Shown here: in pieces, positions 19,757-26,541 of the stretch | Layout: every line of letters begins with the position of its first letter | How positions within the stretch are numbered: the first letter of the stretch is position 1 | From: an uncultured Clostridium sp. | GTDB taxonomy: Bacteria > Bacillota > Clostridia > Clostridiales > Clostridiaceae | NCBI GenBank assembly: GCA_903789665.1 | Contig: CAIFEX010000016.1 | Span: 1-64,000, forward strand | Length of the DNA stretch: 64,000 nt | Direction: 5' to 3' | Notes under the pieces: generated by a model | Databases searched by the model: none | The model's input: only the letters and a program-made list of their open reading frames with translations | What the model was told of the DNA's origin: nothing | Translations under genes and position numbers: made by a program

Positions 19757-19785
19757 TTGACAAAACATAAAAATCCACCTATAAT
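19757..19785 (+). promoter_or_regulatory. Consensus sigma-A promoter of the methyltransferase operon
   Basis: TTGACA (19757-19762), 17 bases, TATAAT (19780-19785): a full-consensus promoter. It predicts a start near 19792 and a leader of about 70 bases that contains GTATATAC and AGTATATAT blocks which could be regulator contacts. Confidence 0.85.
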
Positions 19786-19863: not shown

Positions 19864-21030
19864 ATGGGGAAATATAATAAAATGCTACAGCAGGAAAGAC
19901 AGGAAATTTTCAATAGTTTATATGAGGGAAAAGTTCCAAAAAGAATACCTATTGCAGCATGTGTTACAGTAGAATTTGCCATCAAATATTATGGAATTGA
20001 TATTTTGAAAGCACAGTGGAATCCAGAGTTACTAGAGGGTGCATTTAGGAAAGTTGCAGACGACTTTTACTCAGATGTTTTTCCAATACGTGATCTCATA
20101 AGATTTCCAGTATTTTATAGGTTGTTGGGTGCCAAGAATTTTGTAATGGGTTCCAATGGATTTCTGCAGCATCCGGAAATATCAGCTATGCATTCTGATG
20201 AATATGGAGCTTTTATTAAATCTCCCATGGATTTTATTTTGGAAACCATTCTTCCGAGGATCTATTCGGCACTTGACACGGATCCGGTTAATCGTTCCTT
20301 AATATTGGCGAAGGCTTATAAAGCTTATTGTGATACGGTGGGTTTTTTGAATGGTGTAGTTATTCCAAATCTTGAAAAAGAATATGGAAAATATCAGGCT
20401 CCTCCGCAATCTTCTGCCATGACCGCAGCTCCTATGGATTTTATTGCAGATCAGCTTCGGGGATTTAAAGAAATCAGCCTGGATATACGAAGAAAACCTA
20501 AAGAGCTTATTGAAGCTTGTGAAGCAGTTTATGACACTATGCTGGAGCGAGGTATACCAGCACAACCGTCAATCTATAACTATACTTTTATTCCATTGCA
20601 TATGCCGCCTTATATGAGAAACAGGGATTATGAAAAAATTTATTATCCGACTTTTAAACGTATGGTGGATGGCATTGCTGCTGCTGGTGGGAAATCTTAT
20701 CTTTTTCTCGAGCAGGATTGGTCAAGATTTCTTGATTCACTTTATGATTTGCCAGAGAATACGATTTTACGTTTTGAATATGGAGATCCGAAGGAAATAA
20801 AGGGGAAGTTGGGTAAACAACATATTATTACAGGCCTTTATCCTTTAGGACTATTGAAAACCGGTACAAAACAACAGTGTATTGACAAAGCAAAGGAACT
20901 CATAGATATTCTTGCACCGGGAGGAAAATATTTCTTTGATCTTGATAAGAATATCATTACTGTGGATAGTGTAAACGTCGATAATTTACTTGCTGTTTTG
21001 GAGACATATCGTACCTATGGTATATATTGA
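19864..21030 (+). CDS. UroD-fold corrinoid methyltransferase (methyltransferase I), copy 1
   Basis: Protein of 388 residues of the uroporphyrinogen-decarboxylase-like methyltransferase superfamily (MtaA/CmuA relatives). Such enzymes move a methyl group from a substrate to a corrinoid protein, or back to an acceptor. Typical parts are the N-terminal EGKVPKRIPI, the FLQHPE loop and the C-terminal DILAPGGKYFFDLD. The HxC zinc motif of MtaA/MtbA is absent: at that place it has LEQDW. A Glu283-x14-Glu298-x21-His320 pattern is shared with copy 2. The start at 19864 has AGGGGG; an upstream ATG at 19816 has none. A 51-codon ORF, an MtrH-like methyltransferase and a corrinoid protein follow. The substrate is unknown; a methoxylated compound is one guess. 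Confidence 0.85.
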   Translation: MGKYNKMLQQERQEIFNSLYEGKVPKRIPIAACVTVEFAIKYYGIDILKAQWNPELLEGAFRKVADDFYSDVFPIRDLIRFPVFYRLLGAKNFVMGSNGFLQHPEISAMHSDEYGAFIKSPMDFILETILPRIYSALDTDPVNRSLILAKAYKAYCDTVGFLNGVVIPNLEKEYGKYQAPPQSSAMTAAPMDFIADQLRGFKEISLDIRRKPKELIEACEAVYDTMLERGIPAQPSIYNYTFIPLHMPPYMRNRDYEKIYYPTFKRMVDGIAAAGGKSYLFLEQDWSRFLDSLYDLPENTILRFEYGDPKEIKGKLGKQHIITGLYPLGLLKTGTKQQCIDKAKELIDILAPGGKYFFDLDKNIITVDSVNVDNLLAVLETYRTYGIY

Positions 21031-21045
21031 GGGGGAGAAAAAGAA

Positions 21046-21201
21046 ATGGAAAGTAAATATTTTCAAAGCTGGGAAACATATAAAAAGACATGTGATGAAA
21101 GGGCACAACCAGTTCGAAAAAATGAGGGAATCTATATGAAGCCAGTTTTTGAAAGATATGATGTGGAAATTAAAAATTTTATTATTACATTGTTACTTTG
21201 A
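21046..21201 (+). CDS. Conserved small protein following UroD-type methyltransferase, copy 1
   Basis: A 51-codon ORF with an excellent ribosome binding site (GGGGGAG, eight bases before ATG), 15 bases after the methyltransferase stop. It is homologous to the 47-codon ORF at 23896, which follows the second methyltransferase. Both share Y5-[FY]-x-x-W9-E10-x-Y12-K13 near the start, then M-x-P-x-x-x-[RK]-Y and a C-terminal F-[IV]-x-x-L-L. No known family is recognised. The repeated pairing suggests a subunit, chaperone or leader peptide of the methyltransferase. The C-terminus is hydrophobic but too short to be a sure membrane anchor. Confidence 0.7.
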   Translation: MESKYFQSWETYKKTCDERAQPVRKNEGIYMKPVFERYDVEIKNFIITLLL

Positions 21202-21215
21202 AATGGGGGGTTAAA

Positions 21216-22034
21216 GTGATTATTATTGGAGAAAAGATCAATGGAACAATTCCGAGTGTAAAAAAGGCAATAGAAAACAAAGATGAAGAATTTATTAGAA
21301 ACAGGGCAATTCAGCAGGCAGAAGACGGAGCAGATTATATTGACGTGTGTGCAGGTACTTCCCCGGAAGTAGAACTTGAAACATTGAAATGGCTCATGGA
21401 TGTTGTACAAGATGTTGTAAATAAGCCTCTGTCTATAGATAGCCCGAATCCCAGGACCATTAAATCGGTTTTTAAGTATGCCAAAAAACCTGGAATAATA
21501 AATTCTGTATCGAAAGAAGGTGATAAATGCAGTGTCCTATATCCTATGATCAAGGGAACGGATTGGCAGATAATTGCACTTACCTGTGACAATAACGGTA
21601 TTCCTTCCGATGTGAAAACCAAAGTGAACATAGCCAGGGATTTGGTGGAAGAAGCACAAAAATATGATATAAAACCTGATAGAATCCACATAGATCCGCT
21701 TGTTATGGCACTTTCCACACAAAACACTTCTCTGCTTAATTTTATTGAAGCCATGAAATCTATAAAGTCCATGTATCCTACTGTGAAAATCACTTCGGGA
21801 TTGAGCAATATTTCTTTTGGAATGCCGCTTAGAAAATATGTAAATCAAAATTTTCTGACTATTGCCACTTTTATGGGTATGGATTCTGCAATTATGGATC
21901 CCTGCAACAGGGGGATAATGACAGCACTTTATGCAGCTGAGGCACTTATGGGAAATGATAAATACTGTAGAAAGTTTTCAAATGCCTATAGGAAGAATAA
22001 AATTGGGCCTGTAAGGGACAGGCAAAAACTCTAA
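21216..22034 (+). CDS. Methyl-tetrahydrofolate:corrinoid methyltransferase (MtrH/AcsE-like, methyltransferase II)
   Basis: Pterin-binding TIM barrel of 272 residues that should pass the methyl group between the corrinoid protein and tetrahydrofolate. It starts with IIIGEKINGTIPS, the same motif as the pterin domain of MetH, and keeps DGADYIDVCAG, PLSIDSPNP, ALTCDNNGIP and GLSNISFGMPLR. The GTG at 21216 has GGGGGG upstream; the frame also opens at a TTG at 21198. It sits between the first small ORF and the corrinoid protein, as expected for a three-component methyltransferase system. Confidence 0.9.
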   Translation: MIIIGEKINGTIPSVKKAIENKDEEFIRNRAIQQAEDGADYIDVCAGTSPEVELETLKWLMDVVQDVVNKPLSIDSPNPRTIKSVFKYAKKPGIINSVSKEGDKCSVLYPMIKGTDWQIIALTCDNNGIPSDVKTKVNIARDLVEEAQKYDIKPDRIHIDPLVMALSTQNTSLLNFIEAMKSIKSMYPTVKITSGLSNISFGMPLRKYVNQNFLTIATFMGMDSAIMDPCNRGIMTALYAAEALMGNDKYCRKFSNAYRKNKIGPVRDRQKL

Positions 22035-22092
22035 AATATTTTTTGATATGTTAATGCACTAACACAAATTACAAATTATAGGGGGATTAGAT

Positions 22093-22728
22093 ATGGATTA
22101 TAAATTATTGACACAGTCAGTAGGGGATTTGGATGAAGACAAAGTTTATGAAATGGTAAAGGAATTTGTGAGTTCAAATCCAAAGGAAGAGGAAGCTCAG
22201 AAAGTTGTAAATGCGTGCCAGAATGGCATGGGAATAGTAGGCGATCTGTTTGACAAGGGTGAGTATTTCGTAGGGGATCTGATTTTTGCAGGAGAACTTT
22301 TGAACAATGCCATTGATATTTTGAAACCTGTCATAGGCTCTGGAAATTCCAAGAAAGTTGGCACTATTGTTTTGGGTACGGTAAAGGGAGATCTGCATGA
22401 CATAGGTAAGAATATATTCAAGAGCATGGTGGAGGCTGCAGGGTTTGAAGTGTATGACATAGGCATAGATCAATCTGCCTCGGCTTTTATAGGCAAGATA
22501 AGGGAAGTACATCCCCAGATTGTTGGAATGAGCGGAGTTCTTACCCTTGCCATTGATTCCATGAAACAGATAATAGACGAATTTAAGAAAGAAAATATAA
22601 GGGACAAGATAAAGATAGTCATAGGCGGAAATGCTGTCACAAAGGAAGCTTGTGAGTATGTAGGTGCTGATTCCTATAATACAAATGCTGCGGAAGGTGT
22701 AAAAACTTGTTTAAGGTGGGTGAGTTAA
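22093..22728 (+). CDS. Corrinoid protein of methyltransferase system, copy 1
   Basis: Cobalamin shuttle protein of 211 residues. An N-terminal helical cap (about 10-85) is followed by a Rossmann B12-binding domain. The D100-x-H102-x-x-G105 motif supplies the lower axial histidine ligand. It carries the methyl group between the UroD-type methyltransferases and the MtrH-like enzyme. ATG with AGGGGG. Its stop codon TAA is directly followed by the ATG of the second UroD-type gene, so the two are coupled. Confidence 0.94.
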   Translation: MDYKLLTQSVGDLDEDKVYEMVKEFVSSNPKEEEAQKVVNACQNGMGIVGDLFDKGEYFVGDLIFAGELLNNAIDILKPVIGSGNSKKVGTIVLGTVKGDLHDIGKNIFKSMVEAAGFEVYDIGIDQSASAFIGKIREVHPQIVGMSGVLTLAIDSMKQIIDEFKKENIRDKIKIVIGGNAVTKEACEYVGADSYNTNAAEGVKTCLRWVS

Positions 22729-23883
22729 ATGGCGGACATTAAAAAATTGCAGGAAGAAAGAACTCAATTGTTCAAAGATCTGTTTGATGGAAAGATTCCA
22801 AAGAGAGTGCCTATAAGTGTGAATTTTCCTCTTGAGTTTTCCATACAGTATGCAGGTAAGGACTTAGCTAAGGCACAGTGGGACACTTCCATGCTAGGTG
22901 AGATATTTGAAAAAATATGTAAGAATTTTATTTCAGACGTACTCCCTGTACAGGCTCTTAGATTTCCAGTATATTATAAAATGTTAGGGGCAAGAAATTT
23001 TATAATGAGTTCCAGTGGATTTTTGCAGCATCCGGAAGTGAGCGGCCTTGAAGCCGGGGAATACGACGAATTTATTAAATCGCCCTATAATTGCATTATG
23101 GAAAAAGTACTGCCCAGAATCTATACCGAACTAAATACAGATCCCGTTCAGAGATCTCTTGTAATGGCGAAAGCTTTTAAGGCATTTTATGATGAATTAA
23201 ACAATGTGACTGTAATCTATGAAAAACTGATTGAAAAATATGGTTATTCTTCTTTTGGAAATACCAATGGCTTTATTGAAGCTCCCTTTGATTTCATGTC
23301 AGATCAGTTGAGAGGATTTAAGGGCATGACAGGCGACATAAGAAGACGTCCTGACAAGGTGGCGGCAGCCTGCGAAGCTGTAACCCCAATATTGGTAAAG
23401 GGCGGGATACCTGCATCTCCTTCAAAATATGCTGGTACCTTTATTCCCCTGCACATGGCACCGTATATCCGCACTAAGGATTTTGAAAAATTGTACTGGC
23501 CGAGTTTTAAAAGGGAAGTTGAAGAGCTTGCTGCAGCAGGACAGCCTTCTCTGCTGTTTGTTGAAAATGACTGGACACGTTATGTGGATTATCTCTATGA
23601 ACTTCCTGAAAATACTAGAATGTGGTTTGAATACGGAGATCCTAAGTTTATGAAGGAAAAACTGGGGAAAAAGCATATTCTTACAGGTTTTTATCCGATT
23701 TCTATGTTGAAGACGGGAACAAAACAGGAGTGCATAGACAAAGCCAAGGAACTTGTAGATATCCTTGCACCAGGTGGAAAGTATATGTTTGGATTTGACA
23801 AAGCCATTATAACCGCAGATAGCATTAAAATTGAAAATCTGCAGGCGGTTCTGGAATATGTAGCTAAAAATGCTGATTATTAG
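22729..23883 (+). CDS. UroD-fold corrinoid methyltransferase (methyltransferase I), copy 2
   Basis: A 384-residue paralogue of the protein at 19864, similar over the whole length (shared KTGTKQ-x-CIDKAKEL and DILAPGGKY). The HxC zinc motif is missing here too, replaced by VENDW. Glu279-x14-Glu294-x21-His316 matches copy 1. It starts immediately after the corrinoid gene stop, with AAGGTGGGTG upstream. The N-terminal half, where substrate choice is expected, differs most between the copies, so they may act on different methyl donors (inference). A small ORF homologous to that after copy 1 follows 12 bases later. Confidence 0.86.
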   Translation: MADIKKLQEERTQLFKDLFDGKIPKRVPISVNFPLEFSIQYAGKDLAKAQWDTSMLGEIFEKICKNFISDVLPVQALRFPVYYKMLGARNFIMSSSGFLQHPEVSGLEAGEYDEFIKSPYNCIMEKVLPRIYTELNTDPVQRSLVMAKAFKAFYDELNNVTVIYEKLIEKYGYSSFGNTNGFIEAPFDFMSDQLRGFKGMTGDIRRRPDKVAAACEAVTPILVKGGIPASPSKYAGTFIPLHMAPYIRTKDFEKLYWPSFKREVEELAAAGQPSLLFVENDWTRYVDYLYELPENTRMWFEYGDPKFMKEKLGKKHILTGFYPISMLKTGTKQECIDKAKELVDILAPGGKYMFGFDKAIITADSIKIENLQAVLEYVAKNADY

Positions 23884-23895
23884 GAGGAATATAAT

Positions 23896-24039
23896 ATGAA
23901 GACAGAGTATTATAAAACATGGGAACAGTATAAGGCAGGACATTCTGGGATTAATGAAAATGTTGAAAGTGAAATGGCCCCTAAAATGCAAAAGTATGAG
24001 GAAATGATGTTTATATTTGTTCTTAATTTATTGATGTAG
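23896..24039 (+). CDS. Conserved small protein following UroD-type methyltransferase, copy 2
   Basis: A 47-codon ORF with AGGAGG eight bases before ATG, 12 bases after the methyltransferase stop. It shares Y5, W9-E10, Y12-K13, then M27-x-P29 and K33-Y34, and a hydrophobic F-V-x-x-L-L end with the ORF at 21046. Identity in two independent copies, each with a strong ribosome binding site and fixed position, supports a real gene. Function unknown. It ends the first operon of the island; an inverted repeat follows. Confidence 0.7.
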   Translation: MKTEYYKTWEQYKAGHSGINENVESEMAPKMQKYEEMMFIFVLNLLM

Positions 24040-24046
24040 CAACGTT

Positions 24047-24099
24047 ATTTTAAAGCTGCGGCTCTCTTTTGTCAAAAACTGAGATTGCAGCTTTAAAAT
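24047..24099 (+). terminator. Hairpin terminator inside the methyltransferase island
   Basis: ATTTTAAAGCTGC (24047-24059) pairs perfectly with GCAGCTTTAAAAT (24087-24099). The 27-base loop contains a further small stem (CTC/GAG with TTTTG/CAAAA). The U tract is weak, so termination may be partial. Confidence 0.6.
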
Positions 24100-24167
24100 T
24101 ATTAATTTGTATGTATTAGAATTGTTTTTGAAAAACCGGGGCCGTATATTATAGAGATAACTTAGTA

Positions 24168-24196: not shown

Positions 24197-24222
24197 TGTA
24201 ATTAGAATGAAAAGGATTGATG

Positions 24223-24897
24223 GTGGATGAAATGGATAACCTCGCGGAATTAAAAAAGTTGATTGTGAAATATGTGGAACAGCTGGATGAAGAAAAGGTG
24301 GTAAATTTGGCCAATGAAGCTTTGAATAGGGGAATAGATCCTGTAACCCTGCTTGAAACTGTCAATGATGGCATGGAAAAAGTAGGGAAATTATATGAAA
24401 GTAAAGACTATTATATAGCGGATCTTATATTTTCTGGACTTATTTTTAGAAAAATTTTAGAATTGGACAAAATGAAAGAATATTTTCTCCAAAATAAGCA
24501 TAAGGGATTGGGAAAAGTGGTTTTAGGGACGGTAGAAGGTGATATCCATGATATTGGCAAGGATATTTTTAAAGGTATGCTTGAAGCCAATGGATTTGAA
24601 GTAATCGATTTAGGTGTGGATGTTTCAAAGGAAAAGTTTATAGAGGCAGTTAGAAAAAACAAACCTGATATTTTAGCTATGAGTGCTGCACTTACCAATA
24701 CCATAGATACAATGCGGAATATAGTAAAGGCTTTTTCAAAAGCCGGCATAAGGGATAAAGTTAAGATCATTGTAGGCGCCAATCATATGAATTCCGATAT
24801 AAGCAGGTATATTGGTGCAGATGGTTTTTCCAAAAAGGCTTCTACTGGTACTAAAATATGTTTAAGATGGATGAAGGAAAAAACAGGTAGGGAGTAA
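24223..24897 (+). CDS. Corrinoid protein of methyltransferase system, copy 2
   Basis: Second cobalamin shuttle protein, about 224 residues, with a helical cap and B12-binding domain. The axial-ligand motif is in GDIHDIGKDIFKGML (Asp107-x-His109 from this start). It is clearly different from copy 1 and has its own promoter. The start is uncertain: AAAGGA is followed by ATG 24220, GTG 24223 and ATG 24232, and GTG 24223 has the best spacing. The GntR gene starts six bases after its stop. It could serve the same methyltransferases or partners encoded elsewhere. Confidence 0.9.
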   Translation: MDEMDNLAELKKLIVKYVEQLDEEKVVNLANEALNRGIDPVTLLETVNDGMEKVGKLYESKDYYIADLIFSGLIFRKILELDKMKEYFLQNKHKGLGKVVLGTVEGDIHDIGKDIFKGMLEANGFEVIDLGVDVSKEKFIEAVRKNKPDILAMSAALTNTIDTMRNIVKAFSKAGIRDKVKIIVGANHMNSDISRYIGADGFSKKASTGTKICLRWMKEKTGRE

Positions 24898-24903
24898 CGG
24901 ATA

Positions 24904-25614
24904 ATGAAAAATCCAATATATGCTGAAATTGTACAGAATATACGGAATAAAATTAGCAGCGGCCAGCTGAAACCAGGAGATGATCTACCTTCTGAGACAT
25001 CTTTGTGCAGTGAATATAATACCAGTAGAATGACGGTGAGGAAGGGACTTTCCATTTTATCAAATGAAGGCTATATATATTCTATCCCAGGTAAAGGCTA
25101 TTTCGTAAAAAAACCAAATTATAATAAATATATCTTTGTCTATGACGAAATGAACAATTTAATCAACAATGTGGATAAAACAAAGCTTTTGTCTGTGGAT
25201 ATAATATTACCCGACGAAAAATTGGCAGGCAGTTTGCGGATCAGCGAAAATAAGAAGGTTGTCATGATCAGAAGATTGTTTTATACTGAAGGAGAACCTA
25301 TGGCTTATGATGTCAAATATCTTTTATACAAAAAAGGAACTCCTATTGTGGAAAATGAAATTGAAAATGCAACTTTCCCGGAGATGATATCCAATAGGAC
25401 TTCACTTTATGATTTAAACAACGAACTTATCATATATGCAAAAACTCCTGAGGAAGAGACCAAAAAACTGCTTCATATATATGGTGAAGTTGCATTGCTT
25501 GTAGTGGAACAAAAATTATATGATTCGGGTAATAAACCAATCGGACTTGGAATAACCTATTTTAGGGGAGATTATATTAAACTGCATGGAGTGAGCAAAT
25601 CAAGTAATTGTTAA
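24904..25614 (+). CDS. GntR/HutC family transcriptional regulator
   Basis: Regulator of 236 residues with an N-terminal winged helix (about 1-70, including LPSETSLCSEYNTSRMTVRKGL) and a C-terminal UTRA ligand-binding domain (from about 90, with MIRRLFYTEGEPMAYDVKYL). ATG with GGGAG. It is encoded within the methyltransferase island and is the obvious candidate for its substrate-dependent control. UTRA domains bind small ligands, so the effector may be the methylated substrate (inference). Confidence 0.92.
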   Translation: MKNPIYAEIVQNIRNKISSGQLKPGDDLPSETSLCSEYNTSRMTVRKGLSILSNEGYIYSIPGKGYFVKKPNYNKYIFVYDEMNNLINNVDKTKLLSVDIILPDEKLAGSLRISENKKVVMIRRLFYTEGEPMAYDVKYLLYKKGTPIVENEIENATFPEMISNRTSLYDLNNELIIYAKTPEEETKKLLHIYGEVALLVVEQKLYDSGNKPIGLGITYFRGDYIKLHGVSKSSNC

Positions 25615-25650
25615 GCCTTTAAATGTTTGGGGAAGGGGTTGAAAATTAAA

Positions 25651-26361
25651 ATGAATACCTTGATCGTAGCTTGTCGAACTATTGAAGATGAATTGAATAA
25701 AGCAATAGATGAAACAGGATGTAACTATCCGGTATTGTGGATAAAGTCTGGACTCCACCTACAACCTGATTCTCTGAGAGAATGTTTGCAGTGTGAGCTG
25801 AATCACATATCTAATGTGGATCAGGTTATTCTGGCCTTTGGATATTGTGGAAATTCTATAATTGGGCTTAAACCGCCGAATTATCGCATGATATTTCCAA
25901 GAGCAGATGATTGTATTACATTGCTTTTGGGGTCTTGCAAAAGGCGTGATGAACTGGCCGGTGACAGCGGAACTTATTTTTTGACCAAGGGCTGGCTGGA
26001 ATCGGAAAGCAATATATGGAGTGAATATCAAAATGCTGTGAAACGTTATGGTAAAAAGAAAACGGAGAGAATTTATAGTATAGTTTTTAAGCATTATAAA
26101 AAATTGGGGGTTATAAAGACTGGAGCTTATAAACTTGAGGATTATTTGGAAAAGGCAAAAAAAATAGCAGGAGAATTGAAATTACAATATGAAGTTTTGC
26201 CGGGAACTCTTGAGTATATCAGGGAACTTTTGACGGGTCCGTGGAATTCTGACAAATTTGTGATCATAGATCCAGGTGAAACGGTTACAATGAAACATAT
26301 CTACGGTACACATGGACATCCTTTAGATAATAGCCAGTGTATAATTAAAAATGGACTATGA
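25651..26361 (+). CDS. DUF1638 protein associated with corrinoid methyltransferases
   Basis: Protein of 236 residues of the DUF1638 family, whose genes often lie next to corrinoid methyltransferases in methanogens and anaerobes. Family features seen are the N-terminal LIVACRTIEDE, LAFGYCGNSIIGL, a DDCITLLLGS block and a C-terminal FVIIDPGETVT. The function is undefined; conserved Cys, Asp and Glu residues suggest metal or cofactor binding. The frame opens at TTG 25627, but ATG 25651 gives the family N-terminus. The stop codon lies inside the first arm of the hairpin that terminates nrdJ from the other side. Confidence 0.82.
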   Translation: MNTLIVACRTIEDELNKAIDETGCNYPVLWIKSGLHLQPDSLRECLQCELNHISNVDQVILAFGYCGNSIIGLKPPNYRMIFPRADDCITLLLGSCKRRDELAGDSGTYFLTKGWLESESNIWSEYQNAVKRYGKKKTERIYSIVFKHYKKLGVIKTGAYKLEDYLEKAKKIAGELKLQYEVLPGTLEYIRELLTGPWNSDKFVIIDPGETVTMKHIYGTHGHPLDNSQCIIKNGL

Positions 26362-26395: not shown

Positions 26396-26398
26396 AAT

Positions 26399-26541
26399 AA
26401 GGTAATTTCACCTCTCCTTGTTCGGTGGAGTAAGTGATTTGCACCAAATCAAAGATTTGAGCTCTGAATTAAGGTAACTCCACCTCTCTTTGTTCGGCGG
26501 AGTAAGTGATTCGCACCAAATCAAAGATTTGGGCTCTCTAC
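26399..26541. repeat. Two tandem 72-bp repeat units
   Basis: Unit 1 (26399-26470) and unit 2 (26471-26541) both begin AAGGTAA and share GTTCGG[T/C]GGAGTAAGTGATT, GCACCAAATCAAAGATTTG and GCTCT. Each can form hairpins, for example CAAATC-AAA-GATTTG and a CTCCACC/GGCGGAG-like stem. They lie between the nrdJ stop and its terminator, so they are transcribed in the nrdJ 3' region. No ORF is present. Confidence 0.8.

Follow-up and report, generated by a model that had tools for sequence, protein, structure and literature searches.

The window analysed here is a stretch of 64,000 nucleotides from an uncultured Clostridium sp. (assembly GCA_903789665.1, contig CAIFEX010000016.1), and its subject is a pair of small open reading frames (ORFs), each lying directly behind a gene for a UROD-type methyltransferase. 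The two methyltransferases, MT1 and MT2, are classed as corrinoid-dependent enzymes of the MT-I type, and we refer to the small ORFs as modules 1 and 2 (Table 1). Adjacent corrinoid proteins and a pterin-type methyltransferase (MT-II) give the locus the composition of a corrinoid-dependent MT-I system. Membership of the UROD superfamily is supported by MT2, which exceeds the Pfam URO-D cut-off of 23.9 bits, with MT1 just under it, and by a fused relative that folds as UROD. Both methyltransferases would be expected to transfer methyl groups from a substrate to the corrinoid protein.

Table 1. Features of the methyltransferase locus (window coordinates)
Feature	Position	Strand	Basis
Promoter-like TTGACA-17-TATAAT, upstream of MT1	19757..19785	+	Consensus match, 12/12
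MT1, UROD-type corrinoid-dependent methyltransferase (MT-I)	19864..21030	+	URO-D 21.2 bits, below cut-off
Module 1, 51 aa, predicted detached C-terminal domain / putative small subunit of MT1	21046..21201	+	BLASTP, constraint, tail-profile member
MT-II, pterin-binding methyltransferase	21216..22034	+	Pterin_bind E 1.4e-19; PRK07535 over cut-off
Corrinoid protein 1	22093..22728	+	B12-binding and B12-binding_2 over cut-off
MT2, UROD-type corrinoid-dependent methyltransferase (MT-I)	22729..23883	+	URO-D 32 bits, over cut-off
Module 2, 47 aa, predicted detached C-terminal domain / putative small subunit of MT2	23896..24039	+	BLASTP, constraint, tail-profile member
Corrinoid protein 2	24217..24897	+	B12-binding and B12-binding_2 over cut-off
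GntR/UTRA regulator (neighbour)	24904..25614	+	Domain match
DUF1638 protein (neighbour)	25627..26361	+	E 1.3e-44

A first-pass annotation of this DNA had described both small ORFs, and their positions and lengths (51 and 47 residues plus a stop) were as given there. Module 1 starts 15 nt past the MT1 stop codon (21028-21030) and module 2 starts 12 nt past that of MT2 (23881-23883). The Shine-Dalgarno sequences GGGGGAG (21031-21037) and AGGAGG (23882-23887) were confirmed by eye, each ending 8 nt before the ATG, and the second overlaps the MT2 stop codon. The motifs named in that annotation, W-E-x-Y-K among them, were found in both ORFs, which are 25% identical end to end (BLASTP E 2e-6 as a single comparison); MT1 and MT2 are 55% identical. 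Compared with their orthologues in BL-3, the ratio of non-synonymous to synonymous change (pN/pS) was 0.34 for module 1 and 0.21 for module 2. Pooling of four pairs gave a pN/pS of 0.18, with 64.3 changes at 93.2 synonymous sites versus 59.7 at 482.8 non-synonymous sites (Fisher P 4e-28). The small ORFs are coding sequences under constraint, and the module proteins are presumably made. The source genome holds two module copies, both in the window, and each lies in frame with its own methyltransferase behind a single stop codon (TGA for MT1, TAG for MT2). Directly 3' of module 2, an inverted repeat was seen by eye at 24047-24100 (TTTTAAAGCTGC ... GCAGCTTTAAAA); it is absent from the terminator-scan list, and the transcript may end there.

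A scan of a genome collection with MT2 as the query yielded 18 loci. At L003-L010, the eight closest, which come from clostridial genomes and Bacillota metagenome-assembled genomes, a 47-51-residue W-E-x-Y-K peptide with a Shine-Dalgarno sequence lies behind the methyltransferase. The ten distant loci (L011-L020; Chloroflexi, Anaerolineae, Actinobacteria) contain no W-E-x-Y-K peptide, and two small ORFs flagged there by the rule described below are apparently spurious. The proposal that small protein and methyltransferase form a functional pair is thus supported by homologous ORFs behind related methyltransferases in other genomes, together with clear codon-level constraint. In paralogues of BL-3 (G142) and of a second genome, G224, the module stretch is fused to the methyltransferase C-terminus through a linker. 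Since the same stretch is fused in these paralogues, the small ORF would be a detached C-terminal domain, or else the tail would be an attached small protein. Sequence comparison identifies the modules as homologues of the fused C-terminal tails, and the small ORF as encoding the C-terminal domain of the preceding methyltransferase as a separate polypeptide. G224 (L024-L049) has 23 MT-I paralogues at E ≤1e-60, and most of the 20 retrieved are fused, with a few split. The methyltransferase of L035 has a fused tail; L008:411-1866 was considered as a split case and rejected for its weak match (E about 10).

An iterated profile recovered 248 distinct UROD-type ORFs from the retrieved loci. The tally set comprised the 200 ORFs, distinct in sequence and not independent, that scored at least 250 and lay outside L011-L020; a small ORF was counted when it had 28-75 codons, a Shine-Dalgarno sequence and a start between -8 and +80 nt relative to the methyltransferase end. 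Score threshold, exclusion and small-ORF limits were all chosen after the lists had been seen, and the controls were run under the identical rule. By this rule 124 of the 200 MT-I-type ORFs are followed by a small ORF, 66 carry a C-terminal extension of 61-93 residues and 10 have neither; with the modules of L230 and L249 added by profile, the final tally was 126 split, 66 fused and 8 neither. The 124 split modules are 36-66 residues long and lie 3-73 nt from the methyltransferase (median 14 nt; ≤30 nt in 111). Module sequences are acidic and hydrophobic at one end. The excluded L011-L020 (Chloroflexi/Actinobacteria) hold 14 ORFs, namely 11 without a module, 1 at a locus edge and the 2 with apparently spurious small ORFs.

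Because part of the 200 came from a tail-first search, the phylum set found methyltransferase-first (loci L191-L259, from 63 of the 398 genomes of that search) was tallied separately, and a module was counted at 70 of its 77 ORFs. Among 391 genomes of the class, 12 gave a match to a 27-module profile and 11 to MT2 as the query, these 11 all being among the 12; the twelfth module-profile match (G514, E 0.004) covers 22 residues inside a 759-codon frame and was taken as false. Per-genome matches from the MT2 scan are lower bounds, the best four candidates per genome having been scored in most of the matching genomes.

Controls from the same loci showed how specific the arrangement is. The small-ORF rule was satisfied behind 124 of 134 non-fused MT-I genes versus 28 of 495 non-UROD genes of at least 200 codons (Fisher P 3.7e-90), and behind only 4 of 64 methyltransferases that were already fused. 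Among 34 lower-scoring UROD relatives, 33 had no small ORF and one lay at a locus edge; the rule for fused tails needed a score above 300, so it was the profile search that showed these 33 to lack one. An iterated profile started from one module collected 160 of the 190 modules, comprising all 66 fused and 94 of the 124 split ones, both window ORFs included. When the tail profile was run against 18,372 six-frame ORFs (≥30 residues), it gave 162 matches. Of these, 159 were assigned modules, two were those of L230 and L249, and the last was the tail of a further UROD hit, attributed to it by position, that is truncated where its locus ends. Within the sequence searched, modules adjoin MT-I genes only.

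The 30 modules outside the main profile form small classes and are companions by position only. Profile comparison points to a possible relation with the main profile for classes 3 (probability 57%), 6 (35%) and 9 (30%), and to none for the others. A relation of the module with either the corrinoid protein or the methyltransferase body was considered and rejected (hhalign probability 0.1% each). One small-ORF class (LSREELIEKYNLSEDDQVYLLD...FRFLSYHL) occurs at L133, L134 and L160:4406-5635, has almost the same sequence in two paralogues from a single genome, and is only weakly related to the main profile. A second flavour of fused tail (TPWE.K...GDE..I...WE..E.M.YNW.W.W; L146:750-2138, L160:12807-14180, L231, L232, L233, L235, L257) matches split ORFs of about 57 residues ending WE.LDAFAY..IW.WVQR. 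UROD-type ORFs of L143, L144, L158, L162 and L163 have another C-terminal extension of 117-126 residues ending MGV..LPS.YINGEL.W.SIIPS, which is possibly thioredoxin-like and which showed no relation to the module by profile.

The fused or split state changes at least six times on a tree of 214 methyltransferase bodies built with FastTree, and five times on a quick maximum-likelihood tree limited to 110 representatives, the first of 139; both are raw minimum counts. These trees suggest that one domain has moved repeatedly between fused and separate gene. Methyltransferases with neither form fall mostly into one clade, together with Chloroflexi-type sequences. The reading frames of the 124 split modules relative to the methyltransferase are distributed 46/40/38, and stop-codon read-through was therefore rejected as a general mechanism.

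Distances between modules correlate with those between their methyltransferases, both for the 94 split pairs (r 0.91; never above 0.07 in permutations) and for the 66 fused ones (r 0.83; never above 0.13). Where a corrinoid gene lies within 1.8 kb (74 pairs), the module has a partial correlation of 0.86 with the methyltransferase once the corrinoid protein is controlled for, and one of 0.04 (p 0.18) with the corrinoid protein once the methyltransferase is. Since linkage alone would also make the module track its methyltransferase, this co-divergence speaks against a role in corrinoid specificity more than it speaks for binding.

An AlphaFold2 model of a natural fusion from Anaerosolibacter (L005:1143-2504) was predicted with confidence (mean predicted local distance difference test score, pLDDT, 90.4; predicted template modelling score, pTM, 0.90). 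Block means in its tail were 80-88, and the tail forms helices at residues 420-426 and 435-452. The model of the fused relative has the UROD fold, with UROD structures ranked first by Foldseek (E 2.7e-10). The stretch that links barrel to tail in the fused methyltransferases is conserved (consensus YgvYdNaGe..g...n.e) and is therefore probably not a free tether.

From these data a mode of action can be outlined. The module, produced either as a tail or from the following ORF, would be small and acidic, with two helices. The MT-I would hold its substrate within the barrel, and the corrinoid protein would bring Co(I) to the barrel opening, as modelled for CdmB, the chloromethane MT-I of Acetobacterium dehalogenans, in the accessible text of PMC13222342. 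Docking most likely occurs through the hydrophobic C-terminal helix of the module (E-E-x-x-F-x-F-[IV]-x-x-L-L), which would sit against the UROD barrel of the module's own MT-I and make the module a component of the enzyme; in the fused paralogues that link is covalent. Once docked, it would shape or close the chamber where substrate meets the corrinoid cobalt, or stabilize the methyltransferase dimer. We infer both the binding and the cavity (or dimer) role.

The first-pass annotation had offered three options, a small subunit, an assembly factor or an activator. The small subunit is favored over the other two, given that 66 of 200 relatives carry this stretch covalently as their C-terminal domain; these fused forms and the wide spread of the module extend beyond that annotation. 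We consider it likely that the module is a small subunit of its own methyltransferase. That it shapes the substrate/corrinoid cavity is a more doubtful, though reasonable, possibility. In its broadest form, our tentative proposal is that the UROD-type corrinoid MT-Is of this large Bacillota group may not be single-polypeptide enzymes and may need a previously undescribed small subunit of 36-66 residues, encoded in cis or in trans, that completes the substrate/cob(I)alamin chamber.

Several observations weigh against the small-subunit reading. Eight of the 200 MT-I-type ORFs have no module in either form, and four ORFs of this kind fall outside the clade of module-free methyltransferases: L160:7989-9221 stands alone among split ones and three from L259 are assigned to a mixed clade of 59. 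No small ORF lies behind cdmB (a 100% match in genome G508, among the lower-scoring UROD relatives); the same genome has two fused and two split modules at other methyltransferases. CdmB is also reported to be active with CdmC alone, according to the accessible text of PMC13222342. The co-divergence with the methyltransferase would also be expected from linkage alone, and direct-coupling analysis yielded no contact that can be trusted, its top pair (1.43 versus at most 1.12 in six shuffles) being clade-driven. Finally, when MT2 and module 2 were joined artificially by read-through with a short linker, residues 385-417 of the model fell below a pLDDT of 50, the tail being present in 5 of the 26 alignment rows, three of which were themselves read-through rows. 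The low-confidence segment corresponds to the linker and the W-E-x-Y-K half, and the last helix keeps 79-84. In terms of this model, the last helix would be the anchor, and the first half would need either the longer natural linker or the freedom of a separate chain.

Among the rivals to a small subunit, the one that survives best is a recruitment arm outside the methyltransferase fold, which would catch a partner, either the corrinoid protein or else the reductive activase, and tether it to the methyltransferase, fusion keeping the arm close. Docking peptides are often acidic with a hydrophobic end, as the modules are, and the fused tails sit at the very C-terminus. Against such an arm, module divergence given the methyltransferase does not track the neighbouring corrinoid protein, the fused forms have a conserved linker and the tail of the natural fusion is predicted confidently without a partner, and we regard the idea as unlikely. 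An assembly or stability partner, which would bind the nascent or apo methyltransferase, aid its folding or dimerization and be dispensable for turnover, would fit adjacent translation (median gap 14 nt) through co-translational binding; permanent fusion in 66 of 200 cases is more readily understood for a structural part than for a helper that acts transiently, which makes this explanation quite improbable. C-terminal position, amphipathic helix and hydrophobic end would also suit a peptide that directs the methyltransferase to a scaffold, compartment or membrane. This role is very unlikely, since a separately translated peptide, as 126 of 200 modules are, could target the methyltransferase only by binding it as well. 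The in-frame position of both window ORFs behind one stop might suggest chance ORFs or the decaying remains of an earlier fusion, but these can be dismissed in view of the pooled pN/pS, the low base rate behind other genes and the mixed frames of the split cases.

Regarding the remaining features of the locus, the MT1 frame is open from 19816 and the ATG preceded by a Shine-Dalgarno sequence is that at 19864. The GTG start of MT-II at 21216 was likewise assigned from its Shine-Dalgarno sequence, the ORF being listed from a TTG at 21198. Promoter-like matches number 40 in the region, versus 27.5 ± 5.5 in shuffled sequence. Between the DUF1638 and ribonucleotide reductase genes lies a tandem repeat (26398-26537) with a 72-bp unit, 1.9 copies and 91% matches.

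UROD-type MT-Is channel methyl groups of methoxylated aromatics, haloalkanes and further substrates into acetogenesis, and some genomes carry more than 20 of them (23 in G224). The main new point is that a separate mini-gene without a database name corresponds to a tail domain fused in related MT-Is. Should the module be a small subunit of most MT-Is, it would be one left unnamed by gene callers and by family databases, and substrate screens, heterologous expression, in vitro reconstitution and annotation would so far have missed one component. The modules also offer a clear test case, inside single genomes, of a domain shuttling between fused and separate genes.

The suggestion that such a small protein had not been described for this superfamily was borne out in Pfam, NCBIfam, the PDB and the accessible literature. 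Pfam has no family for the window ORFs at E up to 1, and the sole NCBIfam match to the small ORFs of the window is a weak one to module 1 (14.6 bits against a cut-off of 230). None of 27 module-family members exceeded a Pfam cut-off, none of eight further small modules exceeded a Pfam or NCBIfam cut-off, and the tail profile had no PDB match better than E 1.5. The accessible text of literature including PMC10418091, PMC13222342, PMC8630106, PMC3306737, PMC13391211 and PMC9768040 describes no small subunit or tail of a UROD-type MT-I, and an earlier mention may exist in subscription papers such as the original O-demethylase work.

Among known systems, the MtaA/MtbA methyltransferases (for example 4ay7 from Methanosarcina mazei; Foldseek rank 22, E 2e-7) resemble the methyltransferase body in their UROD fold, and the solved UROD members in the Foldseek list differ in being 336-357 residues long, without the tail. 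CdmB (9rui) is the only PDB chain matched in sequence by the fused methyltransferase of L003 (E 1.2e-21). It is a homodimer of UROD fold that works with a corrinoid protein, as far as the accessible text of PMC13222342 describes it, and is about 26-30% identical to the MT-Is studied here. It has no fused tail, its chain ending with the barrel, whereas the window methyltransferases carry modules and so are not of the CdmB type. The MT-Is of aryl O-demethylases (MtvB, OdmB, VdmB and MtoB) are similar as UROD superfamily enzymes found beside a corrinoid protein and an MT-II, and the accessible parts of PMC8630106 and PMC13222342 mention no small subunit for them. A likeness in manner of working alone is offered by Trm112, the small partner of several S-adenosylmethionine-dependent methyltransferases, which it binds and supports (accessible text of PMC5372719). 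The enzymes concerned are unrelated, and Trm112 is one partner common to several of them, whereas here each methyltransferase has its own copy.

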